Positions 7,751 to 42,821 of a stretch of DNA of 64,000 bases are shown piece by piece. Within the stretch, counting starts at the first letter, position 1; every line of letters starts with the position of its first letter. The translations under genes were made by a program, and so were the position numbers. The stretch is from Methylomonas aurea (GTDB lineage: Bacteria; Pseudomonadota; Gammaproteobacteria; Methylococcales; Methylomonadaceae): NCBI RefSeq assembly GCF_024505045.1, contig NZ_JANIBM010000002.1:124001-188000 (forward strand). Direction: 5' to 3'. The notes beneath the pieces are model-generated. The model saw only the letters and a list, made by a program, of their open reading frames with translations. It made no database searches and had not been told where the DNA came from.

Positions 7751-8506
7751 ATGATGCAACTCGACTGGACCACGTTTATTTTGGAAATCCTCAATTTCCT
7801 GGTGCTGGTGTGGATACTGCAGCGTTTTCTGTACCGGCCGGTTTTGGCGTTACTGGACGCCCGCCAGCAACGCATCAACCAGCAAACCGAGCGCGCCGCG
7901 CAATTGCACGCCGAAGCCGAAGCCTTGCAAAGCCAGTACCAGGCGCGCCTGGCGGATTGGCAGCAACAACAGGATGCCGCGCGTCGGGCGTTGGAGGAAG
8001 AGTTGGCGCAACTGCGCAGCAGCGAATTGGACGCGCTGCGGAAAACTTTGGCCGACGAAGAAGCCAAGTTTCGGGTGCGCAATCAGGCGGCCACCGCGAC
8101 CCGCGAAGCCGCCTTGATCCGCGAAGCGGCGGCCAAGGCCTACGCCCAGACCGCAGCCATGCTGCAGCGGATGGCCGGACCGGATTTGACCGGACGCATC
8201 GTCGAGATTTTCCTGGAAGATTTGCGGCAGTTGCCGGAAGCGGAGCTCGCGGCATTGCATAAAGCGGCGGCAGCTCTGATCCAGGCGTCGGCGGTGACGA
8301 TAGCCAGCGCCCACCCGTTAACCGACGCCGATCAGAGCCGGCTCGGCCAAGCGTTGTCGGCGGCGGCCGGTCGCGAGCTGGCTTTCAACTTCTCCATCGA
8401 CCCGGCCTTGATCGCCGGCGTCCGCGCCGTAGTCGGCGAATGCCAGTTGCACGCCAATTTGGCCGACGAATTGGCCTTTTTCCGCCGCCAAACCAACCAT
8501 GACTGA
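7751..8506 (+). CDS. atpF: N-type ATPase subunit b with delta-like C-terminal domain
   Basis: 251 residues, against about 156 for a normal b subunit. One N-terminal membrane helix (about 8-28, ending Q-R-F-L-Y-R-P) is followed by a long Ala/Gln/Glu-rich coiled coil to about 130. The last part (about 175-245) reads like the C-terminal domain of the delta subunit: T-I-A-S-A-H-P-L-T ... D-P-A-L-I-A-G-V-R ... L-A-D-E-L-A-F. There is no separate atpH, so this fusion probably replaces it. ATG 7754 is also possible. The 3' end overlaps atpA. Confidence 0.88.
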
Positions 8507-9938
8507 GCCGAACACGTCCTATCGGTTCGGCTTACGCCTATCCGAACGCGGCTGCGTGGCCGGCATCGGCGACGGCATCGCCTGGATCCGCGGTCTGCCG
8601 TCGGCCCGGCTCGACGAATTGATCGGCTTCGACGACGGTAGTTCGGGTTTGGTATTCCAACTCGGCAAGGAAGTGTTGGGCGCGATCCTGCTGTCGCAGA
8701 GCCGCGGCGTCACCGCCGGCATGGCGGTACAGCACATCGGCCGTAAATTGGAGATCGGCGTCGGCGACGCCTTGCTCGGCCGGGTAGTCGATCCGCTGGG
8801 CAGTCCGCTGGACGGTTTGCCGGCGCCGCAAACCCGCCAGTTCCGGCCGTTGGAAGCGGCCGCACCGAGCATTATCGAACGCGATTTCGTCAGCGAGCCG
8901 TTTTATACCGGCAGCAAGATCGTCGATAGTCTGATCCCGATCGGCAAGGGCCAGCGCCAATTGATCATCGGCGACGATGGCGTCGGCAAAAGCGCCCTGG
9001 CCTTGGATGCGGTGTTGAACCAGCGCGGCCGCAATGTGTTGTGCGTCATGGTGTTGATCGGCCAACCGCGCTCGTCGGTGGCCGGCACCTTGGAAGCCTT
9101 GCGCGCCGGCGGCGCACTGGATTACACCGTGCTGGTGGTGGCCGAAGCCAACGCCTTGCCGGGCTTTCGTTATCTGGCGCCGTTTGCCGGCTGCGCGATC
9201 GCCGAGCACTGGATGCGGCTGGGCCGCGATACCCTGGTGGTCTACGACGATCTGACCCGTCACGCCCAATCCTACCGCGAGCTGTCGCTACTATTGCAGC
9301 GGCCGCCGGGCCGCGAAGCCTATCCGGGCGACATTTTTTATCTGCATTCGCGTTTGCTGGAACGCTCGACGGTGTTGAGCCTGCAACACGGCGGCGGCAG
9401 CATGACCGCGCTACCGATCATCGAAACCCGACAAGGCGAGTTGTCGGCTTACATCCCGACCAATCTGATTTCGATTACCGACGGCCAGATTTATTTCGAG
9501 AGCAAACTGTTTGCCGCCGGCATCCTGCCGGCGATCGATATCGGCCGCTCGGTGTCGCGGATCGGCGGCAAGGCCCAGCATCCGGCCATCAAAAACGCCG
9601 CTGCCCATATCCGGCTGGACTATCTGCAATTTCTGGAGCTGGAGCTATTTGCCCGCTTCGGCACCCGTCTGGAAGCCAGCGTCGAGGAAAAACTACAGCG
9701 CGGCCGGCTGTTGCGGGAAATTCTGAAGCAGGACCGCTTGCAGCCCTGGTCCGAACCGGCACATCTGGCTTGGTTGCTGGCTTACGGCGAAGGTATGCTG
9801 GCCGATCTCGCGCCGGAACAAGCGGCAGGAGTGTTGGCCTATCTGCAGCAACAACTGGCGGAGACCCGCTTGAGCTTGGATTCGCCGAAGCAGCAATGGC
9901 TGGCGGCGCTCAGGCAATGGCTGGCGGCTAAGCCATGA
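8499..9938 (+). CDS. atpA: N-type ATPase subunit alpha
   Basis: Non-catalytic nucleotide-binding subunit, 479 residues, about 25-35 shorter than ordinary alpha, mainly at the N-terminus that normally binds delta. P-loop G-D-D-G-V-G-K-S (K164), where ordinary alpha has G-D-R-Q-T-G-K-T. The arginine finger S-V-S-R-I-G-G is kept. V-Y-D-D-L-T-R-H-A and P-G-R-E-A-Y-P-G-D are classic alpha blocks. Overlaps atpF by eight bases and atpG by four. Confidence 0.92.
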
Positions 9939-10738
9939 GCCAGCGCCGCGAAGTCGAAGCCCGGCTGGCCTTGTTCGACGAATTGTCCGGCATCCTCGGC
10001 GCGATGCGCAGTTTCGCGTTGGCCGAATTGCGCAAGGTCGGCAAGCGCGAAGCCGGCCAGCAGTTGGTCGTAGAGTCGTTGCTGGCCGCTTTGCACGATT
10101 TGTCCGGCGCCTTGCCGGAAGCGTTTTATGCCGATACCGCCAAATCCCGCGCCGATATCTGGTTGTTGTTCGGCTCGGTGCGCGGCTTTTGCGGCAGTTT
10201 CAACGAAGACGTGCTGCGTTTTTGGCAGGGTGCGGCCGAGCTTGAAGCGCCGTTGATTTTGGTGGGCGAACGCCTGCATTGCCTATTCGACGGTCATGAA
10301 TCCGCCGTTTTTCTGGACGGCGCCGAGGGCGGGCTGGATGCGCCGGCGGCGATTGACCGGATTTTGGCGGCGCTCGCCGAACTGCGCGGCGATGGCGATT
10401 ATGGTTTGATGGTCTGCATCCGCGACGAGCAGGGCGCTCGCAGCCAGCGCTTGTGGCCGTTGCCACCCACTGCCTGCGGGAGTGTTCCGCTAGAACTGCC
10501 GTTGACTTATCAGCGTCCTGCCGCAGTTGCGATGGGCGTTGCCGAACAGTATTTGTTCCATATGCTGCTGGCGCTGATGTTGCGTGCGATTCGGGTCGAA
10601 AATCACATGCGCTTGATGCAGATGGAAACTGCACTGCGCCATCTCGAGCGCGGCGGCGAGGATTTGCAACGCCAGCGCAACCGCCTGCGGCAGGAGGAAA
10701 TCGTCGAGGAAATCGAGCTGATGGTCGGCCGGCGCTAG
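9935..10738 (+). CDS. atpG: N-type ATPase subunit gamma (divergent)
   Basis: 267-residue central shaft. Sequence similarity to ordinary gamma is low, but the layout fits: an N-terminal helix with L-S-G-I-L-G-A-M-R, a central Rossmann-like part with [11 protein letters not shown] (ordinary gamma has S-D-R-G-L-C-G-G-L-N), and a long basic C-terminal helix (R-A-I-R-V-E-N-H ... [11 protein letters not shown]). It is the last gene of the operon, the usual place in N-ATPases. Confidence 0.85.
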
Positions 10739-10838
10739 TCTGGCGATGCGCCGACTTGCCTATTTTTGCAGGTTGGTCGAGGAAACGGCGGCGGCAAACC
10801 CTCTGGTTGCCGATCCGCCGCCTAGTCTGCCTTGCGAA

Positions 10839-11969
10839 TTACGCCTGATGGGCTTGCACTGCCGCAGTCGATTTTCTCCGCCGGTTTGCCAACAGGCCCA
10901 ACAAACCCGAGCCCATCAACCAAAATGCCGGCGGTACCGGCACCGGCGCGACTGCATTCAGGTTAACCGCGCCGTTTTGTGCGCCGAGATAGGTGCCGAT
11001 TTCGGCTTCGGTCGGATTCGAGTCGCTGCCGGCCTTGGCTTCGTGGTTTTCCGGATCGTACTCGCCGGCATACTTGTAAAACTCGTAGCGGAAGATGACC
11101 GATTCGGCATTCTGGCCCAAAACGTTCTGGTAACCGGCTTCAAGTTTGCCGGCGTCCGGATTGCCCGGATCGGTTTGCAATAACTGCCATTCGATTTCGG
11201 TTTCGGCTTGTTCGATCACTTGGTTGCCGCCGATCAGTTCTTCGAGTTCAACTTCGCGTTCCAATTCGGTGCGGAACACTTTTACCCAGATCGCTTCGCC
11301 GAATTGGCCTTCTTGCTCGGCTTGCGGGGCGCGAATATCGGCCACGACCACCGGCTGCGGTTGCGGCTGACCAACCGGCGCAGGCTCGGCAGGGATCACG
11401 TTCCAGTTCGGTGCCGGCAGCACGACTTGACCGTTGCTTTTGGCCAAGGTGCCGGAATTGGAGCCGTCATCGAAAAGCCAGCTATACGTGGTTTTGCTGG
11501 CGTTCTTGCTGGTGCCGACGCCGAAATGGTCGCACGGGGTGCCGGCGTTATAGCCGACGCCGCCGCCGGTCCAGCAGTTGTCGCCGGGGGTGACGAAGGC
11601 GCCGCTCGGCGTGCCGAATAACCAGGATTGGCTGGCTGCATCCCAGGCGCTGGCATAGGTCACCCGAGTGCCGAAGATGCTGCCGTTGGCGTACTCGGTA
11701 ATGGTCGGTGCGCCATAACGCACGACCGCGTTGTTCGGGTCGAAACCGGTGCCGCTGGGAAAACCGCGACCGGCACCGCCGAAGGTGTCGGTAATGTCGC
11801 TACTGTGCAGGCCTTCGAGTTCGATTTCGAAGCCGTGGGCGGTATTGCCGGTATCGTTAACGACGTCGAAATTGCCTAGAAACCCGAGAACACTTGCCGA
11901 AGCAATATTGGGTAACAAGACTAAAGAAAAGGTAGTGGCATAAGCGCGGATTTTGAATTTTGTCGCCAT
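10839..11969 (-). CDS. VPLPA/PEP-CTERM sorted exported protein, unknown function
   Basis: 376 residues. A signal peptide (1 to about 25, ending A-S-A) leads into a Gly/Asn/Thr-rich exported domain with a Cys pair (D-N-C-W and T-P-C-D). The C-terminus is a sorting signal: V-P-V-P-P-A-F-W-L, then a Gly-rich membrane helix (G-S-G-L-L-G-L-L) and a basic tail N-R-R-R-K. Such tails are processed by exosortases; one is encoded at 49431-50945. The body matches no enzyme family I know. GGAG lies just before ATG 11969. Confidence 0.85.
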   Translation of the reverse strand: MATKFKIRAYATTFSLVLLPNIASASVLGFLGNFDVVNDTGNTAHGFEIELEGLHSSDITDTFGGAGRGFPSGTGFDPNNAVVRYGAPTITEYANGSIFGTRVTYASAWDAASQSWLFGTPSGAFVTPGDNCWTGGGVGYNAGTPCDHFGVGTSKNASKTTYSWLFDDGSNSGTLAKSNGQVVLPAPNWNVIPAEPAPVGQPQPQPVVVADIRAPQAEQEGQFGEAIWVKVFRTELEREVELEELIGGNQVIEQAETEIEWQLLQTDPGNPDAGKLEAGYQNVLGQNAESVIFRYEFYKYAGEYDPENHEAKAGSDSNPTEAEIGTYLGAQNGAVNLNAVAPVPVPPAFWLMGSGLLGLLANRRRKSTAAVQAHQA

Positions 11970-12060
11970 TATTGCTCCTGGTTGGCTAGGGCTTAACTAA
12001 AGCTGATCGTCTGCGGGACGATGGGATGCCTTATAGCAAACCAAGATGAATTCAACATGA

Positions 12061-12084
12061 AAACTGTGTTAATCCTCACAGTTT
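12061..12084 (-). terminator. Hairpin over the stop codon of the cytochrome b gene
   Basis: AAACTGTG (12061-12068) and CACAGTTT (12077-12084) form an eight-base-pair stem with an eight-base loop holding the stop codon. On the minus strand the stem is followed by only a few T residues, so a weak terminator at best. Confidence 0.35.
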
Positions 12085-12716
12085 GGCAATTTCGGTTTGC
12101 GTCCGGTGACCATGGCTTTCACCAAACCTTCCTTGTTTACTTTGCTGGAAATCACGACACCCAGTACATGGAGGGCGATCAATAGCAACATCAGATTGCT
12201 GGCGATCTCGTGAATTTCCTCCCAGAATTCCTCGGCCTCATCTTCAGCTTCAGCCGACTTGCCTTTGCCTTCTTCCTCCTCTTCGGCGTGGGCAGCGCTG
12301 ATTACGCTGAGCATTCGACTGTCCTGCGCCAACGGGCCGCGGCCTTCTTCGATGGCATAGACTTTCAAACCGCTGATTGTCACGACGAACAACGTGCTCA
12401 GCAGCGCCAGAACCATCCAGCCGCCGAGCGGATTGTGGCCCAGATAGTGTTTGGCGCTACCTTGTCGCAGTTGGGATACATAGCGAAACACGGCGGCTGG
12501 GGAACGCACGAATTGGCTGAATCGGGCATAGCGGCCGCCCACGAATCCCCAGATCAATCGGAGGCTGATCAAGCCCAGCACGGTGTAGCCGGCATAGATG
12601 TGCCAGTAATTGTCTTCTTCGCTGGTAACGTAAGCGACCGCGAATGCAACGACCAGCGACCAATGGAACACGCGGACGAAAATATCCCAAACCGCTACCG
12701 CATTGTCGTTTTGCAT
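12069..12716 (-). CDS. Cytochrome b561-type membrane protein
   Basis: 215 residues, four membrane helices (about 12-30, 37-58, 98-118, 170-190). Histidines fit for haem ligation: V-F-H-W (helix 1), Y-W-H-I-Y (helix 2) and the last helix (E-E-I-H, A-L-H-V). It belongs to the cytochrome b/b561 electron carrier group that accepts electrons for a periplasmic or membrane partner. Odd point: a long acidic linker before the last helix, with runs of Glu (A-H-A-E-E-E-E-E and D-E-A-E-E-F-W-E-E). No redox partner gene lies beside it. Divergent from the response regulator gene. Confidence 0.82.
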   Translation of the reverse strand: MQNDNAVAVWDIFVRVFHWSLVVAFAVAYVTSEEDNYWHIYAGYTVLGLISLRLIWGFVGGRYARFSQFVRSPAAVFRYVSQLRQGSAKHYLGHNPLGGWMVLALLSTLFVVTISGLKVYAIEEGRGPLAQDSRMLSVISAAHAEEEEEGKGKSAEAEDEAEEFWEEIHEIASNLMLLLIALHVLGVVISSKVNKEGLVKAMVTGRKPKLPNCED

Positions 12717-12850
12717 GGTTCAAGCTCCAGAATAGTTGAGGTATGGCCGGCATTTTAGCCAGGCGAAATGAAACCAATCTTAAAAATCACCGTATCGGCG
12801 GATAAACCATTACACTCTGAACCATTTTCAAGGGGGATGGGCGCCGCGTT

Positions 12851-13516
12851 ATGCGATTGTTGTTGGTGGAAGACGATCCGGGGCTGTCGAGATCGTTAAA
12901 ACTCGAGCTGGAAAGTGCCGGTTTTGCCGTCGATTGCGCGATGGACGGCGAAAGTGCCGAGTTCCTGGGCTCCACCGAATCCTACGACATCGTGATTCTG
13001 GATCTGGGCTTGCCGAAAATGCCCGGCCTGGAGGTGTTGCGGCGTTGGCGGCAGGCGGAAAACCATGTGCCGGTGATCGTGTTGACCGCCCGTGACGCCT
13101 GGCACGAGAAAGTCGACGGCTTCAAAGCCGGCGCCGACGACTACCTGGGTAAGCCGTTTCATATCGAAGAACTGTTGGCTCGGGTGCAGGCGCTGTTGAA
13201 GCGCTTTCACGGCCGGATGCAGCCGCAACTGGCCGGTTGCGGTTTAACGCTGGACGAAGATGCGCAAACGGTCAGCGTTAACGGCGGTCGCCCGGAACAA
13301 CTGACGGCGATCGAATTTCGCTTGCTGCGTTATTTCATGTTGCATCCCGGCAAAGTTTTGACCAGAACCCATTTGCTGGAACATATCTACCAATGCGACA
13401 GCGATCCGGCCAGCAACGTGATCGAGGTTTACGTCAACCGTTTGCGGCGCAAGTTGGGCAACGATCTGATCGCCACCCGCCGCGGCCAGGGTTACGTGTT
13501 CGGCGAGAAAGCCTGA
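12851..13516 (+). CDS. OmpR/PhoB-family response regulator (QseB/PmrA-like)
   Basis: 221 residues. The receiver domain has the acidic pair E7-D8-D9, the phosphoacceptor D51 (V-I-L-D-L-G-L-P) and a Y-L-G-K-P-F lysine motif where most relatives have L-T-K-P-F. The winged-helix DNA-binding domain runs from about 127 to 219 (L-T-A-I-E-F-R-L-L-R-Y ... V-I-E-V-Y-V-N-R-L-R-R-K-L). Its stop overlaps the kinase start (TGATG), so the two are translationally coupled. The target genes are unknown; the divergent cytochrome b gene is one candidate. Confidence 0.92.
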   Translation: MRLLLVEDDPGLSRSLKLELESAGFAVDCAMDGESAEFLGSTESYDIVILDLGLPKMPGLEVLRRWRQAENHVPVIVLTARDAWHEKVDGFKAGADDYLGKPFHIEELLARVQALLKRFHGRMQPQLAGCGLTLDEDAQTVSVNGGRPEQLTAIEFRLLRYFMLHPGKVLTRTHLLEHIYQCDSDPASNVIEVYVNRLRRKLGNDLIATRRGQGYVFGEKA

Positions 13517-14835
13517 TGTCGTTGCAACGCCGTTTGAATCGCGGCTTGATGTTGATTTTGAGTGCGGTGTTCGTCGGTCATTGGCTGGCGGCGGACTGGG
13601 TGATCCGCGCCGTCGCCGAAAAGCAGATGACCACGCGCTTACAACACGACGCCGACTCGTTGTTGGACACGTTGAAGCCTGACGGAGATGGCCGGCTGGA
13701 TTTCGACAGTTCCCACATCGGCACCGTTTACGGTCAGGCGTTTTCCGGCCATTATTTCGTGTTGCACATCGGCGACAAAACCTATTATTCCCAATCGTTG
13801 CAGGGCGAAACCTTGCCGATAGCCGCCTTGCCGGTCGACTCCGTGCAGTTGTTCCATTATAGCGATGGGCCGCAGCGGCAGCCGTTGCTGGTGTTGAACC
13901 GCGGCTTGCAGCGTTTGGGCTATCCGGTCAGTATCGCCATCGCCGAGGATCTGACCGACATCGGCCGCGACATCGATCATATCCGGCTGGCCTATTTGCT
14001 GTTGACGGTATTGGTGCTGCTACTTGCCATCGGTCTGCAAACCGCGGACGTACGGCGGGCATTGCATCCGATGCAGGCGGCGCGCGCCGAATTGGCGGAG
14101 ATTGCCGGCGGCCGCAAACAGCAAATCCAGACCCGGGTGCCGCTGGAAATCAAACCCTTGGTCAGGGAAGTCAACCGCCTGTTGCTGTTGGTCGAGCGGC
14201 GCCTGCACCAGTCGCGGACCGCAATCGGCAATCTGGCGCACTCGTTGAAAACGCCGTTGGCGATGCTGTTCAGACTGGCGGAACACCCCGATCTGAACGC
14301 TCACCCCGAATTGCGGCAACAGTTGCAGCAGCAAGCGCAAAAAATGCATGAACGTATCGAGCGCGAATTGAAGCGGGCCCGATTGTCCGGCAACTTGCAA
14401 TCGGCCAGCATGTTTAATCCGCAGGAAGAGCTGGATGTCTTGACCAAGCTGCTGCGCAACATTTATTCGGAAAAGCTGCTTGACTTTCAAATCAGTGCGC
14501 CGGATCGGCTGATCAATTTCGATAGGGAGGATATGTTGGAATTGATCGGCAATCTATTGGACAACGCTTGTAAGTGGGCCGCACGGCGTATCGTCGTCGA
14601 AATCGATTGCGCGCAGACCATGAGGATCAGCGTCGAGGACGACGGGCCGGGCTGCTCTGCAGCGGACATGCTGCAGCTCAGCCGGCGCGGCTTGCGCCTG
14701 GACGAAGCGGTGCAAGGCCATGGGCTGGGGCTGGCGATCGTGCGCGATATTGCCGAGTTTTACCGCGGAACCTTAGTCATCGAGCGCTCGCCGCGGCTCG
14801 GCGGTCTGCGCGTCAGCGTGCAATTCCCGAGCTGA
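13516..14835 (+). CDS. Sensor histidine kinase (QseC/PhoQ-like)
   Basis: Membrane sensor partner of the preceding regulator, 439 residues from ATG 13516. Membrane helix about 8-27, a periplasmic sensor of about 125 residues, second helix about 157-175, a HAMP-like linker, then the H-box A-H-S-L-K-T-P-L with phosphorylated H242. N-box L-I-G-N-L-L-D-N-A, G1 D-D-G-P-G-C and G2 G-H-G-L-G-L-A-I complete the ATPase domain. The signal sensed cannot be read from sequence. Confidence 0.92.
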   Translation: MSLQRRLNRGLMLILSAVFVGHWLAADWVIRAVAEKQMTTRLQHDADSLLDTLKPDGDGRLDFDSSHIGTVYGQAFSGHYFVLHIGDKTYYSQSLQGETLPIAALPVDSVQLFHYSDGPQRQPLLVLNRGLQRLGYPVSIAIAEDLTDIGRDIDHIRLAYLLLTVLVLLLAIGLQTADVRRALHPMQAARAELAEIAGGRKQQIQTRVPLEIKPLVREVNRLLLLVERRLHQSRTAIGNLAHSLKTPLAMLFRLAEHPDLNAHPELRQQLQQQAQKMHERIERELKRARLSGNLQSASMFNPQEELDVLTKLLRNIYSEKLLDFQISAPDRLINFDREDMLELIGNLLDNACKWAARRIVVEIDCAQTMRISVEDDGPGCSAADMLQLSRRGLRLDEAVQGHGLGLAIVRDIAEFYRGTLVIERSPRLGGLRVSVQFPS

Positions 14836-16347: not shown

Positions 16348-17052
16348 ATGGCCGTTTTTCACTCCATTTTGGTTACCGACAGCCAAGCCGAGACCGCGGC
16401 GAACCGCAGCCTCTGGCTGGACGGCGAACTGGCGAGTTTTGGCTACGTCCCCGATTCGGATGCGGCGCTGGCCGTGTTGTCGGTCAAAGTGCACCGCAAA
16501 CCGCACGATCTGACGGCGCATTTGCGCCGCATCCATCATTGCTACCAACAACGCCACTCGGCGGCGCTGTATGCCGCTGTGCTGGATTTGTCGATCGTCT
16601 TGCAAGGCAAGGGCGAGGCGCTCAGGCGGCGGATGCTTAACGCCAGCCGGATTCGTTTGGAACCACGCGATTTCCAAATTTTGTCGGCTTTGGAGCGACA
16701 CGATCCGCGCCAAATCGGCAACCGCTACTCGTTACTGGCCAGCGGAATCCAGGGCCGTAGCGATCTGCTCGCGCCGCTAGCAACGCAATCCGAATCGAAC
16801 CACGATCCGTTGGCGTTGGCTAACGACTTTATCGAATACAGCCAATTGGATCAGGCCATGGATGTGCTGGAACACGCGGTCGGCCTCTATCCGCAGCGCG
16901 GCGAACTGCAAACGGCGTTATTGGAACTGTACCGCTCCACCGCCAGCCGCGAGCGCTTTCAAACCGCTTGGCGCACCTTCAACGAATTGGCCGTACCGTT
17001 GGTTGGCGACTGGCAATCGGTGGCAGACTATTTCGACCGGCAGGCGTCATGA
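16348..17052 (+). CDS. TPR-like protein heading the GTPase operon, unknown function
   Basis: 234 residues, cytosolic (no signal or membrane helix). ATG 16348 fits the GGAAGG site better than the GTG at 16342. The C-terminal 90 residues look like tetratricopeptide/FimV-C-type helices (D-P-L-A-L-A-N-D-F-I ... A-M-D-V-L-E-H-A-V-G-L-Y-P, then L-L-E-L-Y-R-S). The N-terminal 140 residues are helical with many His/Arg and match no family I know. Its stop overlaps the next start (ATGA). A scaffold role in the GTPase module is inferred from context only. Confidence 0.65.
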   Translation: MAVFHSILVTDSQAETAANRSLWLDGELASFGYVPDSDAALAVLSVKVHRKPHDLTAHLRRIHHCYQQRHSAALYAAVLDLSIVLQGKGEALRRRMLNASRIRLEPRDFQILSALERHDPRQIGNRYSLLASGIQGRSDLLAPLATQSESNHDPLALANDFIEYSQLDQAMDVLEHAVGLYPQRGELQTALLELYRSTASRERFQTAWRTFNELAVPLVGDWQSVADYFDRQAS

Positions 17053-18272
17053 ATAAAACCGCAAAAACCGCCCATCCTTATCGGATTGCGTTGCACGGCA
17101 TGGACAGCCGCACCAGCAAGACCATGGAAATGTATTTGAAGGGCCCGTGCCGCGGCGCGGCCGTGGTCGCCGCCGCCGATGAAGCCCAAATCGATATGAT
17201 CGACGCCGACCACGCCAAGGCGCGGGAAATTTTGGACCAGCGTAAGGCTGCGGCGCCTGGCCGGCCGATCATCCTGCTGTCGCTGCAGACCCTGCAGATC
17301 GATAACACTTTCTTCATCAAAAAACCGGTCAGTGCCGAACAGATACTCGGCGTGCTGGACAAAATCGGGCCGTTATTGAAAGCGGCAGAGAACAAACCGG
17401 AGCCGGCACCGGCCACGCCTGCAAAACCGCAGTCGGCGCCAGCGTCTGCACCTGCGGCCAAAACCGTTCTCGACGTCTACGTCAAGCCGGCCAAACCGAC
17501 CAAACCCATCGATAACGCCGAACGGCAAAAGACCGCCAAACACCAATCGGCGATGCAACTCAACGAAGGCGGTTTTACCGCGTTTTTGGGTACGGTCGGC
17601 GATATCGACTTTGACGACGAGGCGCAATTGCCCACCGCTTGTTACGATCCGCGCCAGTTTTTCCTGGGTTATGTGCAGTCGGCCGCCAAGACCGCCGGTC
17701 TGCAGGCAAGGCCGTTGCGGCTCAGCTCGATCTGGAAGCCGCTATATCTATTCCCCGAGCAGAATGAAGTCTGGCTCGATGCCGACGACAAACAATTGCG
17801 CGCCTTTGCCGGGGTTGCGTTCAAACCCGGCACGGCCAACAACATGAGTTTGTCGGCCCTGGACCCGGCAGCCGCCGCTGCGGAGCGGGCGCCGGAGAAG
17901 TATCAGGATTTGCAAGCCTTTATCTGGAAACTGGCGATCTGGACTTCGAAAGGGCGGTTCCCGATCGGATTGGATATCGAGCGGCCGGTGTTCCTGCAAC
18001 GTTGGCCCAATTTCACCCGCTTGGTGATCACGCCGGATGCGATGCGGATCGCCGCGCTGCTGGTGAAGACCCCGACTGCGCCGAGCGCGGTTTGCCGGGT
18101 ACTGAACGTCAAGCCGCAATACGTGTTCGTGTTTATCAGCGCTTGCCATGCCATAGGTATCTTGCGCCAGAGCGAGCGCGAAGCCGATGTGGTGATCGCC
18201 GCACCCGTGCCGGAAAAGCCGAAAAACGAAGGGTTGTTACGCAAAATTCTCAGTAAATTGCGCGGTGCCTAG
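17049..18272 (+). CDS. Pseudo-receiver protein with C-terminal winged-helix-like domain
   Basis: 407 residues from ATG 17049. Residues 10 to about 115 resemble a response-regulator receiver: M-I-D-A-D-H, then R-P-I-I-L-L-S and F-I-K-K-P-V-S-A-E-Q, which matches the beta5 K-P end; but no clear D-D pocket or phosphoacceptor is seen. An Ala/Pro/Lys linker (about 115-165) follows. The C-terminal half has W-K-P-L-Y-L-F and ends in a helix-turn-helix-like section (M-R-I-A-A-L-L-V-K-T-P-T-A ... Y-V-F-V-F-I-S-A-C-H-A-I-G). Packed between the TPR-like protein and the GTPase. Probably a signalling adaptor; function not known. Confidence 0.6.
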   Translation: MNKTAKTAHPYRIALHGMDSRTSKTMEMYLKGPCRGAAVVAAADEAQIDMIDADHAKAREILDQRKAAAPGRPIILLSLQTLQIDNTFFIKKPVSAEQILGVLDKIGPLLKAAENKPEPAPATPAKPQSAPASAPAAKTVLDVYVKPAKPTKPIDNAERQKTAKHQSAMQLNEGGFTAFLGTVGDIDFDDEAQLPTACYDPRQFFLGYVQSAAKTAGLQARPLRLSSIWKPLYLFPEQNEVWLDADDKQLRAFAGVAFKPGTANNMSLSALDPAAAAAERAPEKYQDLQAFIWKLAIWTSKGRFPIGLDIERPVFLQRWPNFTRLVITPDAMRIAALLVKTPTAPSAVCRVLNVKPQYVFVFISACHAIGILRQSEREADVVIAAPVPEKPKNEGLLRKILSKLRGA

Positions 18273-18293
18273 CCGCTCTCAGCAGGAATTCCG

Positions 18294-18830
18294 ATGAGCC
18301 AATATAAAATCATTTTCACCGGGCCGGTCGGCGCCGGAAAAACCACTGCGATCAACGCCATCAGCGACACGCCGCCCGTGAAAACCGACGCGGCGGCCAG
18401 CGACATGACCAAGAACCGCAAAGCCTCGACCACGGTGGCGATGGATTACGGCGTGATGAATCTGGCCGGCGGCGAAAAGATCCATTTGTACGGCACGCCG
18501 GGTCAGGAACGCTTCGATTTCATGTGGGACATTCTGGTCAACGGCGGTATCGGCTTGATTTTGCTGTTAGATAACACCCGCGCCGACCCGTTTCAGGATA
18601 TGAAGTTCTTTCTAGATGCGTTCAGTAAATTTATCAACGACACCAGTCTGGCCATCGGCGTCACGCAAATGGATTTGAGCAACCGCCCGACCATCGACGA
18701 TTACCACTCGCGCTTGCAGGAATTCGGCATCAAGCCGCCGGTATTTGCTGTGGATGCCCGCGAAAAGAACGACGTGTCGCTGCTGGTGCAGGCCTTGTTG
18801 TATTCGCTGGATCCCGGTTTGGCGGAGTAG
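18294..18830 (+). CDS. Ras/MglA-like small GTPase
   Basis: 178 residues. P-loop G-P-V-G-A-G-K-T-T (10-18, K16), G3-type motif Y-G-T-P-G-Q-E-R-F where Ras has D-T-A-G-Q, and G4-type T-Q-M-D. It belongs to the prokaryotic Ras-like group that includes MglA, the polarity switch for gliding and type IV pili in Myxococcus. The change of Asp to Gly in the G3 box is common in this group. Two downstream genes encode possible (18835) and clear (19526) roadblock-fold partners, as with MglB. It should act as a cytosolic GTP/GDP switch; the downstream target is unknown. Confidence 0.85.
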   Translation: MSQYKIIFTGPVGAGKTTAINAISDTPPVKTDAAASDMTKNRKASTTVAMDYGVMNLAGGEKIHLYGTPGQERFDFMWDILVNGGIGLILLLDNTRADPFQDMKFFLDAFSKFINDTSLAIGVTQMDLSNRPTIDDYHSRLQEFGIKPPVFAVDAREKNDVSLLVQALLYSLDPGLAE

Positions 18831-18834
18831 TGCC

Positions 18835-19479
18835 ATGGAGCGTTTCACACTGGTCGAAGGCCTGTTTTTATATCCGACGCCGGCCGGGGCTTATTACGCG
18901 GTAGCTTATCCGGATTCCGACAAACCCCGGCGTTTTTTGCTGCGCCTGTTGCAGCAGGCGCAGACGCCGGCGCTGGCGTTGCCACCGTTGCAAAGCCTGA
19001 TGGAGATCGAAGACGAACAGAAAGCCTTGGAAATGTTGCTGCATTGCCAGAAGTTAGGCTGGGTGCAGGGTGTGGATACGCCGTTGCAGGCGCCGGCCGG
19101 TGCGCTGGAGGACGTATTGCCCGGCTTGCTGGCCGCGATATCCGAATCCGGCAAGGTGCTGCTGGCGGACGACCAGGGTTTTTATCTGGCCTGCAGCGGC
19201 TTTCCGCACGAGACGGCCGAAGAATTGTCGGCCTTGAGCGCCGAATTGGCCACCGTGCACAAACGCCGCTCCGGCTTATTGAGCAACAACATGGGCATCG
19301 CCAGCCACGCCTGGGCGATTGTCGATGCCTTCGGCGCCAGCCAGATCGGCTTCTGGCCGATTTTCGTCGGCGGCCGCCGTTTCGTGCTGGCCATTGCCGG
19401 CACGCCCCATTTCAATCAGGCCGAATTCGTCAGTTTGGCCTGGATTCTGACGACCCGGTACGTCAAAAAGGGCGATTAG
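18835..19479 (+). CDS. GTPase-associated protein, possibly roadblock-like
   Basis: 214 residues from ATG 18835, two bases after the GTPase stop. The N-terminal half (V-E-G-L-F-L-Y-P-T-P and a helix E-D-E-Q-K-A-L-E-M-L-L-H-C-Q-K-L-G-W) looks like a small winged or helical domain. The second half (V-L-L-A-D-D-Q-G-F-Y-L-A-C-S-G-F ... R-F-V-L-A-I-A-G) has the strand pattern of a Roadblock/LC7 fold. The fold call is by eye and uncertain. The tight spacing supports action with the GTPase. Confidence 0.55.
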   Translation: MERFTLVEGLFLYPTPAGAYYAVAYPDSDKPRRFLLRLLQQAQTPALALPPLQSLMEIEDEQKALEMLLHCQKLGWVQGVDTPLQAPAGALEDVLPGLLAAISESGKVLLADDQGFYLACSGFPHETAEELSALSAELATVHKRRSGLLSNNMGIASHAWAIVDAFGASQIGFWPIFVGGRRFVLAIAGTPHFNQAEFVSLAWILTTRYVKKGD

Positions 19480-19525
19480 TTTTGCCCGACTCCCTTGTCA
19501 ATTTTACTTTTAGGAGATACCCATT

Positions 19526-19888
19526 ATGAAAGCAGATATGCTGACCTCGGTGTTGACCGAGCTGAATGGCACTTCGGCTGATATTGAAGCATCGGGCGTG
19601 ATATCTACGGACGGTTTAATGATGGCCTCGGTATTGCCGGCCGGCATGGATGAAGACCGCGTCGGCGCGATGAGTGCGGCGATGCTGTCCCTCGGCGACC
19701 GGACCGCGCAGGAACTGAGCCGGGGCAATCTGGAGCAGGTGTTGATCAAAGGCGCGCGCGGCTATGTGCTGATGACTTACGCCGGCAGCGAAGCCGTATT
19801 GACGGTGCTGGCCAAGCCCAACGCCAAATTGGGCCTGATCTTTCTCGACGTCAAGCGCGCGGCTGAAAGCATTTCCGAAATGCTGTGA
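19526..19888 (+). CDS. Roadblock/LC7-domain protein (MglB-like)
   Basis: 120 residues, one Roadblock/LC7 domain: an N-terminal helix, S-G-V-I-S-T-D-G-L-M-M-A-S, a long helix with A-A-M-L-S-L-G-D-R-T-A-Q-E-L, then the strands G-Y-V-L-M-T-Y-A-G and A-V-L-T-V-L-A. Such proteins bind Ras-like GTPases and in Myxococcus (MglB) stimulate GTP hydrolysis. An AGGAG site precedes ATG 19526. The best-supported partner of the GTPase two genes upstream. Confidence 0.85.
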   Translation: MKADMLTSVLTELNGTSADIEASGVISTDGLMMASVLPAGMDEDRVGAMSAAMLSLGDRTAQELSRGNLEQVLIKGARGYVLMTYAGSEAVLTVLAKPNAKLGLIFLDVKRAAESISEML

Positions 19889-19915
19889 TCCCGAAACCAT
19901 GCTACGGAGCCGATC

Positions 19916-20392
19916 ATGATTAGCGATATGAAACCCGAGGATATCGTCGGAGACTACCGGGAGACCGTGTTGACGTTCTACGACGGAACTCGCCGCAAAG
20001 TGTTGTATACCGAACTGGAAACCCCGTATCCGGACGGCAAACTGATCGTTTCGACCACGACGCCGGAGGGGGTGATCCGCCAGGTGAACCGGGCATTCGT
20101 CGAGATGTCCGGCTACAGCGAAGCCGAACTGATCGGTGCGCCGCACAATATTCTGCGCCATCCGGACATGCCGGCGGCGGCGTTCAAGGATTTGTGGGAG
20201 ACGGTCCAGCGCGGCGAAAAATGGCAGGGTTACGTCAAAAATCTGCGCAAGGACGGCGGTTATTACTGGGTCAAGGCCACGGTGATCCCCAACGTGCGCG
20301 GCGGCAAGGTGGTGGGTTATACCTCGGTCCGGCGCAAGCCGTCGCGGACCAGGGTCGACGAATGCGCCAAACTCTATCCGACCTTACGTTAA
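19916..20392 (+). CDS. Stand-alone Aer-type PAS sensor protein
   Basis: 158 residues, one PAS domain (about 38-140), no membrane helix or signalling domain. The sequence follows the N-terminal PAS of the aerotaxis receptor Aer closely: V-N-R-A-F-V-E-M-S-G-Y, R-H-P-D-M-P-A-A-A-F-K-D-L-W, G-Y-V-K-N-L-R-K-D-G-G-Y-Y-W-V and a terminal L-Y-P motif. In Aer this domain binds FAD and reads the redox state. FAD binding here is inferred. The first 37 residues (F-Y-D-G-T-R-R-K-V) are extra. ATG 19928 is an alternative start. Confidence 0.82.
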   Translation: MISDMKPEDIVGDYRETVLTFYDGTRRKVLYTELETPYPDGKLIVSTTTPEGVIRQVNRAFVEMSGYSEAELIGAPHNILRHPDMPAAAFKDLWETVQRGEKWQGYVKNLRKDGGYYWVKATVIPNVRGGKVVGYTSVRRKPSRTRVDECAKLYPTLR

Positions 20393-20403
20393 CGGAGCCC
20401 GCC

Positions 20404-21150
20404 ATGACATTCCTGTTTACCGTCAGTCCCGATTTCGCTCCGGACCGCCTGTCAGGCTGGTATATCTTCAACACCTGGCTGCAAAAACAAACCGGTACCG
20501 CGATCCATCTGGAAATGTACAACCATTACCAGCAACTGCATCAAGCCATCGAGGCCGATAAAATCGACCTGATTTACGCCAATCCTTACGACGCGGCGAT
20601 GCTGGTCAGAAACAAAGGTTTTTTGCCGTTGGCCAAGGCTCAGGGCCAGGCGGACGAAGCCATCATCGCCGTCAATGCCGACAGTTCGGTACGAGACGTC
20701 GCCGATTTGCAAGCCAATAGCCGGGTGGCGTTTACCGACGATCCCGACGTGCGGCTGATGGGCATGATTATGTTGGAGCCGGCCGACCTCGATGCCGGCA
20801 ACATTGTCCCGGTTTTGGCGGACACCCATGTGCTGGTGGCGAAACATTTGCTGAAAGGCGAAGCGGACGCCGGTATCATTCTGGCCGAAGCCTACGACAA
20901 TTTGTCCGGCGTGATTCGCAAGCAGTTACGGGTGCTAGTCCGCAGCCAGATCAGCGTGATCCACCATGCGTTGATGGTCGGCCCGCGTTTGCAGGCAAAG
21001 CGCGGCGAATGGCGCCAGGTGCTGTTGGATATGGCGGCGGACGAGAAGGGCAGAGGCGTCCTGGCCGCGTTGGGCTTCGACGGCTGGCAAACGATAGACG
21101 ACGAGGAAATGGAATTCATGATCGACTTGATGGATACGCTAAATACCTGA
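20404..21150 (+). CDS. PhnD-like substrate-binding-fold protein without signal peptide
   Basis: 248 residues from ATG 20404, 11 bases after the PAS gene. It matches the PhnD/phosphonate-binding family of type 2 periplasmic binding proteins: a W-L-Q-K-Q-T-G start, the D-L-I-Y-A-N-P-Y-D-A-A hinge strand, A-D-L-Q-A-N-S-R-V-A-F and a closing A-L-G-F-D-G-W motif. No signal peptide and no ABC permease or ATPase nearby, so transport is unlikely. It is probably a cytosolic ligand sensor of the GTPase module (inference). Confidence 0.7.
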   Translation: MTFLFTVSPDFAPDRLSGWYIFNTWLQKQTGTAIHLEMYNHYQQLHQAIEADKIDLIYANPYDAAMLVRNKGFLPLAKAQGQADEAIIAVNADSSVRDVADLQANSRVAFTDDPDVRLMGMIMLEPADLDAGNIVPVLADTHVLVAKHLLKGEADAGIILAEAYDNLSGVIRKQLRVLVRSQISVIHHALMVGPRLQAKRGEWRQVLLDMAADEKGRGVLAALGFDGWQTIDDEEMEFMIDLMDTLNT

Positions 21151-21179
21151 CCTCAAATTCAGGAAGGAAAACGGCAACG

Positions 21180-21779
21180 ATGACGACAGTGACCACAGTG
21201 GATATTTTGCGGCACGGCGAGGCCCGCGGCGGCTCCCGTTACCGCGGTATAACCGACGATGCGTTGACCGAGCGCGGCTGGCGGCAAATGTACCGGCAAT
21301 GCGGCGAACTGCATTGGGACGTCGTGGTCAGCTCGCCGCTGCGCCGTTGCCGTTCATTCGCGGCGGCCTGGTGCGAACAGCAGCAGGCCGAGTTGCGCGT
21401 CGATCCGGCCTGGGCCGAATACGACTTCGGCGTCTGGGATGGTCTGAGTGCGGATCAGATCGAGAGCCAATGGCCCGGCGCCTTGTCGGCGTTTTACCGC
21501 GATCCCGAGCGCTACCCGCCGCCCAAGGCGGAAAATTTCCGCGACTTCAACCGCCGCGTCCAGGTCGCCTGGGATAAATTGCTGGCCGATGGTGCCGGCA
21601 AGAAGGTGTTGCTGGTCAGCCATGCCGGCATCGTGCGCAGCTTGTTCAGCCATTGTCTGCAACTGCCGGCAAGGAACGCCTTCCAAATCGAGATTCCGCA
21701 GGCCGGGTTGACCCGGTTTACGGCATTCGATAGCGAAGACGGCCGTTACCTACAGTTTAACTTCCACCGACCGGGTTGA
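21180..21779 (+). CDS. Histidine-phosphatase superfamily protein
   Basis: 199 residues from ATG 21180 behind AGGAAGGAAAA. The phosphohistidine motif is L-R-H-G-E-A (H12); a second catalytic His lies in V-S-H-A-G-I-V-R-S, and Y-D-F-G-V-W-D-G-L fits the family block. Best likeness is to alpha-ribazole phosphatase/broad phosphatases (CobC type), but no cobalamin genes lie nearby, so the substrate is open. Last gene in the GTPase operon; 43 bases before cyaA. Confidence 0.8.
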   Translation: MTTVTTVDILRHGEARGGSRYRGITDDALTERGWRQMYRQCGELHWDVVVSSPLRRCRSFAAAWCEQQQAELRVDPAWAEYDFGVWDGLSADQIESQWPGALSAFYRDPERYPPPKAENFRDFNRRVQVAWDKLLADGAGKKVLLVSHAGIVRSLFSHCLQLPARNAFQIEIPQAGLTRFTAFDSEDGRYLQFNFHRPG

Positions 21780-21822: not shown

Positions 21823-24621
21823 GTGACGAACCGATTCCTTCCAATCCGCTTGGGCGCCCCCGGCGAAGAAATCAGTAAAAAAGATCTGCATGCGGTGACG
21901 CAGCGTTTCAAATATTTCAACCAACAGCGATTGCAGCACGTGCAGAGTCTGTTGCAGCCGCGGCAGCAGGATTTTCTGAAATTACTGCCGCTATTATTCC
22001 ATCAAAACCATCCTTTATTGCCCGGCTTCGTCTCTTCGGAAACCCCGGCCGGAATTCCGGACTACGCGCCGAGCAAACAGACCGTCGACGTCGCCAAGCA
22101 ATTTTCCAAGGGGTTTGCTTATAAGCGCAAGGCGTTGCGGCAATATCCGATTCACGCCATATTTCTGATGGGCAGCGTCGGCAGCATGGCTTTTTCCAAG
22201 GAAAGCGATATCGACATCTGGTTATGTCATGACGCTAATTTAATGGGCGACGAGTTGGAGGAGTTGCGGCAAAAAACCAGAGAGGTCGAAAAATGGGCGG
22301 CATCGTTGAAAATCGAAGCGCATTTTTTTCTGGTCGTTGCCGAGCAATTCATGCGCGGCGAGAATACGCCGATTTCCAAGGAAAGCAGCGGCGAAACCCA
22401 GCACTATCTGTTGTTGGAAGAATTTTACCGCACGTCGATTTACGTCGTCGGGCGCACGCCGGTCTGGTGGTTGGTACCGCCAGACCAGGAGCGTCACTAC
22501 GGCCAATACGTGCAGCACTTGCTGGAGAACCGTTTCGTCGCCGAAGCCGATGTACTCGATTTTGGCGATCTGAACCAAATGCCGACAGCGGAATTCGTCA
22601 GCGCGACGCTGTGGCATATTTTTAAATCCCTGACCTCGCCGCATAAATCGCTGTTGAAGCTGTTATTGATGGAGAGCTATGCCAGCGAGTTTCCGCATCC
22701 GCAATGGCTGTGCCTGGCCCTTAAACAAGCCGTTTACCGCGGCGAGTTCAGCGTCGAAAGCCTGGATCCGTATTTGCTGATGTACAGCAAGGTCGACGCC
22801 TACTTGCGCCAAGGCGGCTTTGCCCAGCGCCTGGATCTGATCCGCGAGTGTTTTTACATGAAGATCATGGCCGGTTCCGGGCCGATCCTGGAAAACCGGG
22901 TGCGGCAAATGCGCGAAAACTTTATGCAACAAGTCGCCGAACAATGGCAGTGGCCGGACGACATGCTGGACGGCCTGGCCAGCCAACGTTACTGGGACAT
23001 CAAGCGCGCCAACAGCGAGCACGCCGTGATTCGCGACCAGTTGCAACAGTGCTTGCGCATGATCATCAAATTCACCGGCTTGCCGGTCGACCAGGCCCAG
23101 CGCGAAAACCGGGATTTACGCCTGATCGGCCGCAAGCTGCGCGCCGCGCTGGACCAGCGCCCCGGCAAAATCGAAATATTGACGACGCGCGGTGCGGTCC
23201 ACACCACGCCGGATTTGTTGGTGGCCAAGGAAGCCGTTGCCGAAGACGCTCCTCCGGTCTGGCGGTTATACAGCGACAGAAATGTCGCGCAGCAGGCAGC
23301 CGAACACAGCGCCATCAAGCAGGGCGACAGTTTGTTGGAAATACTGAGTTGGGCGGTGCTGAACGGTTTGTATAAAAAAACCTTGAATTTGCAGGTTGCG
23401 GCGGCAAACCTGAAATTGGCCGGCAACGATTTGTACCAGTTGTTCAACGAGTTGAACGCTTTTTTTCAGGCGCGTTTGCCGAGCGCCGACAGCGGCTTGG
23501 ATGCCTTCGCCGCGCCGAACCGGCTGTCGGCCGCGCTGTTGCTGGTCAATCTCGGCGAAAGCCTGGCCATGGATACCAACAGCCAGCAATTGGTCATGAG
23601 CGAGCGTTCGGACCCGCTGAGTTACGGCGAGACCCGCCAATGCTTCGTACAATCGGTTTATAAGCTGTCGGTGTCGAGTTGGGGCGAGGCGACCTTGCAG
23701 TATTACGTCGGGCTGGAGGGCCTGCTCAACTGCTTGTTGGACATCTTGCATAATGGCGGACCGCAAATCGCGGCCGATTCGCTAAAGGTGTTATGTTACA
23801 CGCCGGTGCGCGGCCGCAGTATCGTGTTGCGTACCGAGTCCTTGTTCAACAATCTGTTGAAGTGCTTTGTTGCCGCCGGTGCCGGCGCCCAGCGTTATAT
23901 CATCCCGGCCGAGACCGGTTACAGTCTGTTTCAATACAATAACGGCCGTTTGGGCTATTTTCGTTTGGATAACGCCAACCAACTGATTCAGGAGCTTTCT
24001 AAGCCGCAGCCGCAGTTTTCCGCGGTGCTGTTTGATGCTTACGTGTTGGAACAAACTTACATCCCGGTGTTGTACCGCCACAACCTGGCCGACACGGTGC
24101 AGGTCTTTTACCACGCTACCAGCAAACATGTGGCGGTTTACGTGCTGGACGAAAAAGGCTCGTTGTTCGTCCGCCAGCATAATAATGCCAATCCGGAACA
24201 CGTATTGAACCACTACTCGCTGTTTCTCGGCACCTTGCTGGCCCAAGCGCAGGTGCCGGAAGGCATCGGTGTGCGTTTTTACGAGATTCAAAAGAACTCG
24301 GCCGGGGTCGTGTCCTGCCAAGCCGTGCAGGTCAAGGTGGGCGCCAGCGTGTTCGACTTGCGCGTCAGGATCGTCGGCGAGGCGGGCGGCGGCATCGCGG
24401 TCTATTGCAACGAACGCCGGTTCGCGATCGACGGCGCGGAAAGCTTAAAGGCGGTGCGTAGCGAGATCCTAGGTTATCGCAACAGCCATGACGATTATCC
24501 GTTTCACATCACCGAAATAGACGCGCCTTGCCGGGTTCTGGGCGCCGAACATAGCGAAGAACTGCAGACGCTGCATTTTCTGCATTACAAGCAAAAAATG
24601 GAGGATAAGTTAAACATTTAA
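21823..24621 (+). CDS. cyaA: Class I adenylate cyclase
   Basis: Makes cAMP from ATP. 932 residues, somewhat longer than the E. coli enzyme (848). Starts at GTG 21823. The N-terminal catalytic half has the nucleotidyltransferase block F-L-M-G-S-V-G-S-M-A-F-S-K-E-S-D-I-D-I-W, whose two Asp residues bind metal, and class I blocks such as L-L-L-E-E-F-Y-R-T-S and V-W-W-L-V-P-P. The C-terminal half is the regulatory part of the family. In the same direction as the GTPase operon, which may set its expression. No CRP gene in the window. Confidence 0.95.
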   Translation: MTNRFLPIRLGAPGEEISKKDLHAVTQRFKYFNQQRLQHVQSLLQPRQQDFLKLLPLLFHQNHPLLPGFVSSETPAGIPDYAPSKQTVDVAKQFSKGFAYKRKALRQYPIHAIFLMGSVGSMAFSKESDIDIWLCHDANLMGDELEELRQKTREVEKWAASLKIEAHFFLVVAEQFMRGENTPISKESSGETQHYLLLEEFYRTSIYVVGRTPVWWLVPPDQERHYGQYVQHLLENRFVAEADVLDFGDLNQMPTAEFVSATLWHIFKSLTSPHKSLLKLLLMESYASEFPHPQWLCLALKQAVYRGEFSVESLDPYLLMYSKVDAYLRQGGFAQRLDLIRECFYMKIMAGSGPILENRVRQMRENFMQQVAEQWQWPDDMLDGLASQRYWDIKRANSEHAVIRDQLQQCLRMIIKFTGLPVDQAQRENRDLRLIGRKLRAALDQRPGKIEILTTRGAVHTTPDLLVAKEAVAEDAPPVWRLYSDRNVAQQAAEHSAIKQGDSLLEILSWAVLNGLYKKTLNLQVAAANLKLAGNDLYQLFNELNAFFQARLPSADSGLDAFAAPNRLSAALLLVNLGESLAMDTNSQQLVMSERSDPLSYGETRQCFVQSVYKLSVSSWGEATLQYYVGLEGLLNCLLDILHNGGPQIAADSLKVLCYTPVRGRSIVLRTESLFNNLLKCFVAAGAGAQRYIIPAETGYSLFQYNNGRLGYFRLDNANQLIQELSKPQPQFSAVLFDAYVLEQTYIPVLYRHNLADTVQVFYHATSKHVAVYVLDEKGSLFVRQHNNANPEHVLNHYSLFLGTLLAQAQVPEGIGVRFYEIQKNSAGVVSCQAVQVKVGASVFDLRVRIVGEAGGGIAVYCNERRFAIDGAESLKAVRSEILGYRNSHDDYPFHITEIDAPCRVLGAEHSEELQTLHFLHYKQKMEDKLNI

Positions 24622-36647: not shown

Positions 36648-36649
36648 GG

Positions 36650-37840: not shown

Positions 37841-37910
37841 ATTCTGAGCAAAGTCCTATGTTAGCAGATATTATTGATAGCGTTATTCCAAGTGAATAAC
37901 CTTGAAAAGA

Positions 37911-42812: not shown

Positions 42813-42821
42813 CTAGATAAA

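Follow-up and report, generated by a model that had tools for sequence, protein, structure and literature searches.

Which signals set the state of a bacterial MglA-type GTPase, and what does the GTPase then act on? To our knowledge, the on/off control of these proteins is largely open outside Myxococcus. The question is raised by an operon in the methane-eating bacterium Methylomonas aurea, a compact, conserved gene set built around a Ras-like switch of a known, little-studied bacterial class. In this operon and its relatives, candidate inputs whose chemistry is known (flavin PAS, haem protoglobin, binding protein) adjoin the roadblock and GTPase genes.

Gene content and fit to Group 3 MglA systems

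We analyzed a window of 64,000 nucleotides (NZ_JANIBM010000002.1, positions 124,001 to 188,000), in which all eight ORFs listed by the first-pass annotation were confirmed on the plus strand, with order and coordinates as first described (Table 1). Gaps between them run from -4 to 46 bases; from g1 through to the adenylate cyclase gene beyond g8, they are -4, 21, 4, 46, 27, 11, 29, and 43 bases. Scans for promoters and terminators returned about as many sites as shuffled sequence did (2 vs. 3.7 and 15 vs. 12.5, respectively). Our Pfam scan covered nine proteins, g1–g8 and the adenylate cyclase.

Table 1. Genes of the M. aurea locus, numbered from the first letter of the window.
Gene	Position	Strand	Product and features
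g1	16348..17052	+	234 aa; C-terminal half of TPR type; regularly opens the unit
g2	17049..18272	+	407 aa; atypical receiver ~10-115, low-confidence linker, C-terminal domain with terminal HTH-like helix triplet, basic last helix 396-406
g3	18294..18830	+	178 aa, MglA-family GTPase
g4	18835..19479	+	214 aa; predicted N-terminal helical (winged-helix-like) domain and predicted C-terminal roadblock fold
g5	19526..19888	+	120 aa, Roadblock/LC7 protein
g6	19916..20392	+	158 aa, stand-alone Aer-type PAS; probable FAD/redox sensor
g7	20404..21150	+	248 aa, apparently leaderless PhnD-like substrate-binding protein; probable cytosolic ligand sensor
g8	21180..21779	+	histidine phosphatase (branch 1); lineage-specific neighbor, outside conserved unit
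class I adenylate cyclase	21823..24621	+	lineage-specific neighbor downstream of g8; Pfam PF01295, 4e-106

The GTPase g3, which is the sole match of our GTPase profile in its own genome, matched PF03029 and Ras in Pfam and carries the motifs GPVGAGKTT (G1), GTPGQERF (G3; YGTPGQ), TQMD (G4), and VDAR (G5). T68, Q125, and R156 were invariant across 32 aligned members, and a wider table of 62 rows held some exceptions to the motifs, in distant rows. The accessible text of Wuichet & Sogaard-Andersen 2014 (PMC4316618) describes Group 3 MglA systems as having an MglA-type G3 without the catalytic Asp, a G4 without Lys, and a G5 with DAR, together with a receiver-like/winged-helix protein and one or two coupled MglB proteins, in beta/gamma-Proteobacteria; Neisseria is a genus named for the group. 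The motifs of g3 show this pattern. A roadblock protein coupled to the GTPase was identified by Pfam in g5 (Robl_LC7, 2.3e-16; PDB 7f8m, E 8.7e-27), and a second is predicted in g4, where Robl_LC7 fell below threshold with no other Pfam match, and where structure prediction and a fold search both point to the roadblock fold. For g2, which had no Pfam match, structure prediction and a fold search spanning residues 6–119 likewise support a receiver-like N-terminus; at its C-terminus, where the Group 3 description places a winged helix, the model contains a helix triplet (329–369), with HTH_20 weakly matched in 4 of 31 aligned members and FleQ in one. In a Neisseria record we found a protein 57.7% identical to g3, with relatives of g1, g2, g4, and g5 alongside.

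The core operon fits a Group 3 MglA system. The first-pass annotation had proposed a switch operon around a Ras/MglA-like GTPase, with a Roadblock/LC7 protein, a possible second roadblock partner, and a pseudo-receiver, and these assignments were borne out by Pfam for g3 and g5 and by predicted folds for g2 and g4. Its further view, that no pathway of such a composition was known, does not hold for the core: Group 3 MglA systems of this composition were reported in 2014 (PMC4316618), and the available part of a Snodgrassella study treats the same core composition as an mgl operon (PMC11112851). New here are the TPR-type g1 as regular first gene, the predicted architecture of g4 as a roadblock protein with an additional N-terminal domain, and single-domain sensors that adjoin the roadblock gene and vary between lineages. 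Neither a regular TPR-type g1 nor exchangeable PAS, PhnD-like, or protoglobin sensors appear in the accessible portions of the Group 3 descriptions (PMC4316618, PMC11112851).

For g1, Pfam gave weak TPR-type matches and nothing else, with TPR_19 found at E ≤ 0.01 in 7 of 28 aligned members, and profiles of g1 and g2 had no significant match among PDB sequences. The end helix of g2 has a net charge of +4.4 and a mean moment of 0.60, compared with 0.38–0.43 for four other operon proteins, and its amphipathicity was no higher than when the same residues were shuffled (z 0.73; 0.12–0.99 for the four other proteins), so that a membrane-targeting function for this helix is no more than hinted at.

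Distribution of the core and its sensor genes

The gene order g1–g5 is repeated in many numbered gammaproteobacterial families, and this recurrence is itself the argument that g1–g5 is a real module. For the nearest set we kept the best 80 of 510 relatives, a list that includes the laboratory methanotrophs Methylomonas sp. LW13 and Methylotuvimicrobium buryatense 5G; the majority, though not all, carry Methylococcales names, and enough flank was available at 56 of the 80 loci. Within it the core was complete in 53 of 56 loci, g4 and g5 being missing from the other three (L043, L075, and L076), and g1 was present in 54. A class-wide set was chosen by hand from better-scoring matches and includes one locus from the family of M. 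aurea itself (L117) and three found via g4 (L157–L159); the core was complete in 25 of the 50 class-wide loci with enough flank, a fraction that, given this selection, does not describe a random sample. Sixteen of the remaining 25 have g2, g3, and g5 and lack g1 and g4. Across the phylum, g4 was detected in 4 of 299 genomes, its own included. In a survey of the flanks of 28 loci, no neighbor family was common to more than three, the protoglobin cluster (4 loci) aside.

The g6 protein, in which Pfam found PAS families only (PAS_3), aligned over residues 32–156 with the PAS domain of an aerotaxis receptor (PDB 8dik, E 1.6e-36), and across 23 aligned members its RHP(D)MP, W, and VKN motifs vary little or not at all. 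By sequence, g6 shares the FAD-type PAS domain of the Aer receptor, whereas it lacks the HAMP and MCP signaling domains. In g7, the Phosphonate-bd match (E 6e-47) places profile position 1 at residue 5, a start shared by 24 aligned members. Judged from this fold start, g7 differs from the binding proteins of PhnD-type ABC transporters in having no periplasmic leader, and no transporter gene partner was found by Pfam among the nine scanned proteins. The 16 strongest g7 relatives (369 genomes; E at most 1.9e-70) all lie within a g1–g7-type operon, one of which is without the GTPase, and four weaker relatives in three genomes (E 2.9e-57 to 3.6e-39) lie outside it, the line between strong and weak having been set after the list was seen.

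The first-pass annotation's pairing of an Aer-type PAS with a leaderless PhnD-like protein recurs: both are present in 52 of the 53 nearest loci with a complete core (from the best 80 of 510 relatives, mostly Methylococcales) and in 10 of 25 in the class-wide set. Protoglobin genes occur in 5 of 56 nearest loci (same best 80 of 510) and 4 of 50 class-wide loci, three times without the PAS and PhnD-like proteins; PF11563 was confirmed in the four tested (L024, L073, L120, and L145), of which L073 lies outside these counts. All three sensor types are absent from the span searched in 11 of the 25 class-wide cores. A CZB gene is present in locus L126, and an MCP gene adjoins g5 in L132.

Methylacidiphilum has a protein in which a globin is linked to a roadblock domain (HGbRL; PMC4476040). 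According to the accessible part of that report, HGbRL likewise combines a globin sensor with a roadblock domain, but it belongs to another globin class and is a fusion, whereas the protoglobins here are separate genes. We found no literature on protoglobin together with roadblock proteins, and, by title and abstract start, no publication on PAS or PhnD-like sensor genes in MglA/roadblock operons, in searches of mainly open-access papers.

Comparison with related switches

The conservons (CvnA-D; Group 2 MglA) resemble the operon in their GTPase, to which g3 is 37.6% identical over 97% (Streptomyces), and in their roadblock partner (7.7e-20). They differ from it in having a CvnA-type kinase, no kinase family being present among the nine scanned proteins. 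DUF742 (CvnC) had no sequence match in g2 or g4, singly or across relatives, and with neither a CvnA kinase nor DUF742 detected by sequence, we rejected membership in the conservons. A two-component pair was seen further upstream, beyond argH (12851-14835, by eye).

Myxococcus MglA/MglB with SgmX (TPR) and FrzS (pseudo-receiver) comprises the same types of parts. The M. aurea genes form one operon, the match to an MglA whose structure is known is weak, and what g1 has in common with SgmX is a TPR-type region. In plasmid clusters of Thermus and Deinococcus, our profiles matched a GTPase and a roadblock protein, and the protein preceding the GTPase has a basic amphipathic end, comparable to the basic last helix of g2. 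This protein (DUF4388 in Thermus, a hypothetical protein in Deinococcus) stands where the receiver-like g2 would be, and the g1 and g4 profiles had no match in these stretches. The Thermus plasmid order is DUF4388-GTPase-roadblock-protoglobin.

A proposed sensor-gated switch and its alternatives

Sequence or predicted fold establishes the g3 GTPase, the two roadblock proteins, the pseudo-receiver, the Aer-like PAS, the PhnD-like fold, and the conserved order of the genes. Our best reading is that the operon encodes a G-protein switch without a kinase, gated by redox state and a ligand, which would work through its TPR and pseudo-receiver proteins. The stand-alone sensors would act on the roadblock proteins, with FAD-PAS or protoglobin responding to redox or O2 and the PhnD-like protein to a cytosolic ligand; g4 and g5 would determine which nucleotide g3 carries; g3-GTP would bind g1; and g3-GTP/g1 together with g2, which its last helix may anchor to the membrane, would control a surface apparatus at the cell pole, with type IV pili the likeliest candidate. 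We put forward this mechanism tentatively, at somewhat short of an even chance; it builds on the conserved unit at 16348-21150, a Group 3 MglA-type module (g1–g5) with a sensor cassette (g6–g7). Possible, though on balance doubtful, is a wider generalization in which single-domain sensors (FAD-PAS, protoglobin, cytosolic binding protein, zinc-binding CZB) would be swapped at one slot around a hub of GTPase and roadblock pair, such that oxygen, redox, and metabolites would gate surface behavior through an MglA-SgmX-FrzS-like trio, with no kinase involved.

Precedent for a pilus output comes from Myxococcus, where, in the accessible text, a GTPase, a TPR protein, and a pseudo-receiver act on type IV pili (PMC12632262; see also PMC7519303). 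In Snodgrassella, the available part of the study reports that an orphan mglB mutant altered soft-agar spreading and that mglB-1, -2, and -3 aid colonization (PMC11112851); the spreading allele sits in an orphan roadblock gene, outside the operon. We detected pilT in 66/66 carriers and 243/303 non-carriers (p 2e-6). Among genomes of at least 2 Mb it was found in 65/65 carriers and 55/59 sampled non-carriers (p 0.049, a value that ignores kinship), and at 2.5 Mb or more also in 38/38 sampled non-carriers. The association is thus largely one of genome size, and the argument from pilT is permissive only. Our Pfam scan of nine genes in the window turned up no pilus gene, and pilB/pilC-like ORFs lie beside the core in one of 28 mapped loci (L120). 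Also weighing against the proposed mechanism are the class-wide cores with none of the three sensor types, the operon that has no GTPase, the limited likeness of g1 to SgmX, and the shuffling result for the g2 end helix.

A transcriptional role, in which the GTPase controls g2 and the C-terminal winged helix of g2 binds DNA, strikes us as unlikely. Such DNA binding was suggested, and the winged-helix fold predicted, in the accessible text of the Group 3 description (PMC4316618), and the helix triplet and the HTH_20 and FleQ matches in g2 point the same way; however, the putative recognition helix (356–369) averages 0.10 K+R per sequence and is 73% hydrophobic across 31 sequences, unlike a DNA-reading helix, and g4 bears a domain of similar appearance, which would suit a role in protein contact. 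That g6 and g7 form a sensing pair of their own, sharing only the transcript, would accord with the absence of g6 from 15 of 25 class-wide cores and with the weaker g7 relatives located elsewhere, but it is quite unlikely given that the strongest relatives are inside the operon and that protoglobin occupies a similar place.

Swimming is a very unlikely target. The Aer-type PAS and the MCP and CZB genes noted above would suit an aerotaxis-like input to the flagellum, as would fliF matches in 42 of 66 carriers, but the other 24 have no such match, and fliF was also found in 39 of 80 sampled non-carriers, so there is little association. The first-pass annotation had, finally, expected all eight genes to travel together and had named cAMP among the outputs. 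The expectation held for g1–g7 in most of the nearest loci and failed for g8 (His_Phos_1 in Pfam): although the class I adenylate cyclase gene follows g8 closely on the same strand, of the 57 loci where 7 kb or more of downstream sequence was available, phosphatase and cyclase adjoin the unit in only 10, each of which is named Methylomonas. Because these are Methylomonas-type neighbors, cAMP has lost its main support, and we rejected it as an output, its control by the module through the cyclase being highly improbable.

If the G-protein switch proposed above is right, exchangeable oxygen/redox and ligand sensors would make the input of such switches visible, and, as the hosts are culturable methanotrophs with oxygen as co-substrate, what a roadblock-GTPase switch senses becomes directly testable. 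One genome (L184) keeps g1, g2, and g4–g7 and is missing the GTPase, a natural experiment on the remaining parts by themselves.

Conservation of the operon and its core

Eight closely spaced, same-strand genes were present as the first-pass annotation had noted, in a 4.8 Mb Methylomonas assembly of 93 contigs. They encode a TPR-type protein (g1), a pseudo-receiver protein (g2), an MglA-family GTPase (g3; 99% identical to its counterpart in Methylomonas koyamae SM2), an N-terminal helical domain joined to a roadblock fold (g4), a Roadblock/LC7 protein (g5), an Aer-type PAS protein (g6), a leaderless PhnD-like protein (g7) and a histidine phosphatase (g8).

Coordinates of the operon and other features (first three rows, positions in the window; other rows, positions in each locus)
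Feature	Position	Strand	Remarks
Eight-gene set	16348-21779	+	Inter-gene spacing -4 to 46 bases
Class I adenylate cyclase	Starts 43 bases past g8		
Low-GC stretch	36001-46000		GC 0.38-0.39 against 0.46-0.64 in the remaining window; probably an acquired island
L174 (G000:C23), same genome	6468-7345	minus	Orphan roadblock gene (Robl_LC7), then a second, weakly roadblock-like ORF; EAL-like and transmembrane-looking ORFs nearby (by eye)
L184 (G146:C67:26001-42000)	7819-13117	minus	g1-g2-g4-g5-g6-g7, GTPase gene missing; g4 and g5 separated by an additional PhnD-like gene
L047	11232-15061		Insert separating g4 from g5: SpoIIE phosphatase that also has a PAS and a kinase-like ATPase domain, and STAS-PhnD fusion
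L138	7505-9136	minus	408-aa FIST-like ORF (by eye) immediately past g5
L064	11215-14260		Order g5, g7, 300-aa ORF (5'-nucleotidase-like by eye), g6
L120	10943-14684	one strand	Past g5: protoglobin, PilB-type ATPase with MshEN domain, PilC-like ORF (by eye)

Among the best 80 of 510 relatives, the majority named Methylococcales, 56 had at least 2.6 kb upstream and at least 5 kb downstream of the GTPase. In these 56 nearest loci we found g1 in 54, g2 in 56, g4 and g5 in 53 each, and g6 and g7 in 52 each. Not all eight genes travel together, because g8, and with it the adenylate cyclase, lay downstream in only 10/57 loci; argH lay upstream in 9/64. In an evenly drawn sample of 369 gammaproteobacterial genomes, 66 carried the GTPase (E<=1e-15), and of 50 class-wide loci with enough flank, selected by hand from the better matches and thus non-random, 25 had complete g1-g5, while 16 of the remaining 25 had g2, g3 and g5 without g1 and g4. 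From these counts, we concluded that the conserved unit is the five-gene core, plus a reduced g2-g3-g5 form. At L051, L055, L058 and L059 the 120-aa g5 was duplicated within the operon. Clusters L141, L146 and L148 each held two GTPases, both with GxxGAGK[ST] P-loops, alongside g2-like and roadblock genes, and are possible GTPase pairs.

Relation to described systems

In Group 3 MglA systems, as defined by Wuichet & Sogaard-Andersen (PMC4316618, excerpts), MglA is accompanied by a receiver/winged-helix protein and by either a single MglB or a pair of them; these systems are nearly restricted to beta/gamma-Proteobacteria, and have a G4 motif often without Lys and a DAR G5. Motifs and predicted folds gave the same picture here (receiver-like protein, G4 without Lys, DAR G5, two roadblocks), and judged by motifs and gene composition the core is of this known but little-studied kind. 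In the C-terminal domain of g2, a possible winged helix, the model has a helix triplet (329-369), and HTH_20 matched weakly in 4 of 31 aligned members. The parts, folds and genomic linkage of the suggested signalling switch were borne out, but the idea that its composition was undescribed was not. What are new are the TPR partner g1 as a regular member, the two-domain roadblock g4 and, above all, exchangeable operon-linked sensors.

The Snodgrassella mgl operon has been assigned to Group 3 in a study that reports a change in soft-agar spreading caused by an orphan mglB allele and a contribution of mglB-1, -2 and -3 to gut colonisation (PMC11112851, excerpts). Neisseria is also named for Group 3 in the excerpts, and an N. 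gonorrhoeae record (L179) carries g1-g5 relatives in the same order but with broken frames; since g1, g2, g3 and g4 are each split across more than one open frame, this operon has probably decayed. The GTPase g3 shares 37.6% identity over 97% with a conservon GTPase and resembles MglA of known structure less closely, but the operon lacks the kinase and DUF742 protein of conservons. A Thermus plasmid has consecutive DUF4388, GTPase, roadblock and protoglobin genes.

Occupants of the proposed sensor position

The g6-g7 cassette accompanied 52/53 complete cores in the nearest loci and 10/25 class-wide, where one further core had g7 without g6, and 11/25 lacked PAS, PhnD-like protein and protoglobin alike. 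Protoglobin genes (5/56 nearest, 4/50 class-wide loci) lay in the g4-g5 gap, in the g5-g6 gap or directly past g5, and at L120, L123 and L125 occurred without g6 and g7; the Pfam family was confirmed in 4/4 genes tested (L024, L073, L145, L120). A CZB gene (L126) and an MCP gene (L132) were also located in this part of the operon. The L047 insertion is perhaps a partner-switching input into this slot, and the L138 ORF perhaps a further sensor.

Relatives of g7 occurred at 20 places across the 369 genomes. The 16 strongest (E<=1.9e-70) were all within this operon type: 14 adjoining the GTPase, one at L185, where the contig begins inside g4, and one at L184, where the GTPase is missing. Four weaker places, in three genomes, were outside it. 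No GTPase was found at E<=0.01 in the whole L184 genome (98% complete).

Proposed mechanism and output

By analogy with roadblock proteins elsewhere, g4 and g5 may set the nucleotide state of g3, and gene position and exchange suggest that g6, g7 or protoglobin would signal redox/O2 and the presence of a ligand to the roadblocks. A Methylacidiphilum protein in which globin and roadblock domains are fused (PMC4476040, excerpts) independently hints at such sensor-roadblock contact. Myxococcus MglA in its GTP form binds SgmX, a TPR protein that then docks on the FrzS pseudo-receiver and activates pili (PMC12632262, excerpts); g3, g1 and g2 correspond in kind to these three proteins, and might by analogy act likewise on pili.

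The presumed recognition helix in g2 is poor in basic residues (0.10 per sequence) and 73% hydrophobic, which weakens the alternative that the operon regulates transcription through this protein. Output to pili is compatible with the co-occurrence of pilT (66/66 GTPase carriers vs 243/303 non-carriers), yet hardly supported by it, because large-genome non-carriers nearly all have pilT too (at least 2 Mb: 65/65 carriers vs 55/59 sampled non-carriers; at least 2.5 Mb: 38/38 sampled non-carriers). Flagella are dispensable for GTPase carriers, since only 42/66 had fliF (vs 39/80 sampled non-carriers).
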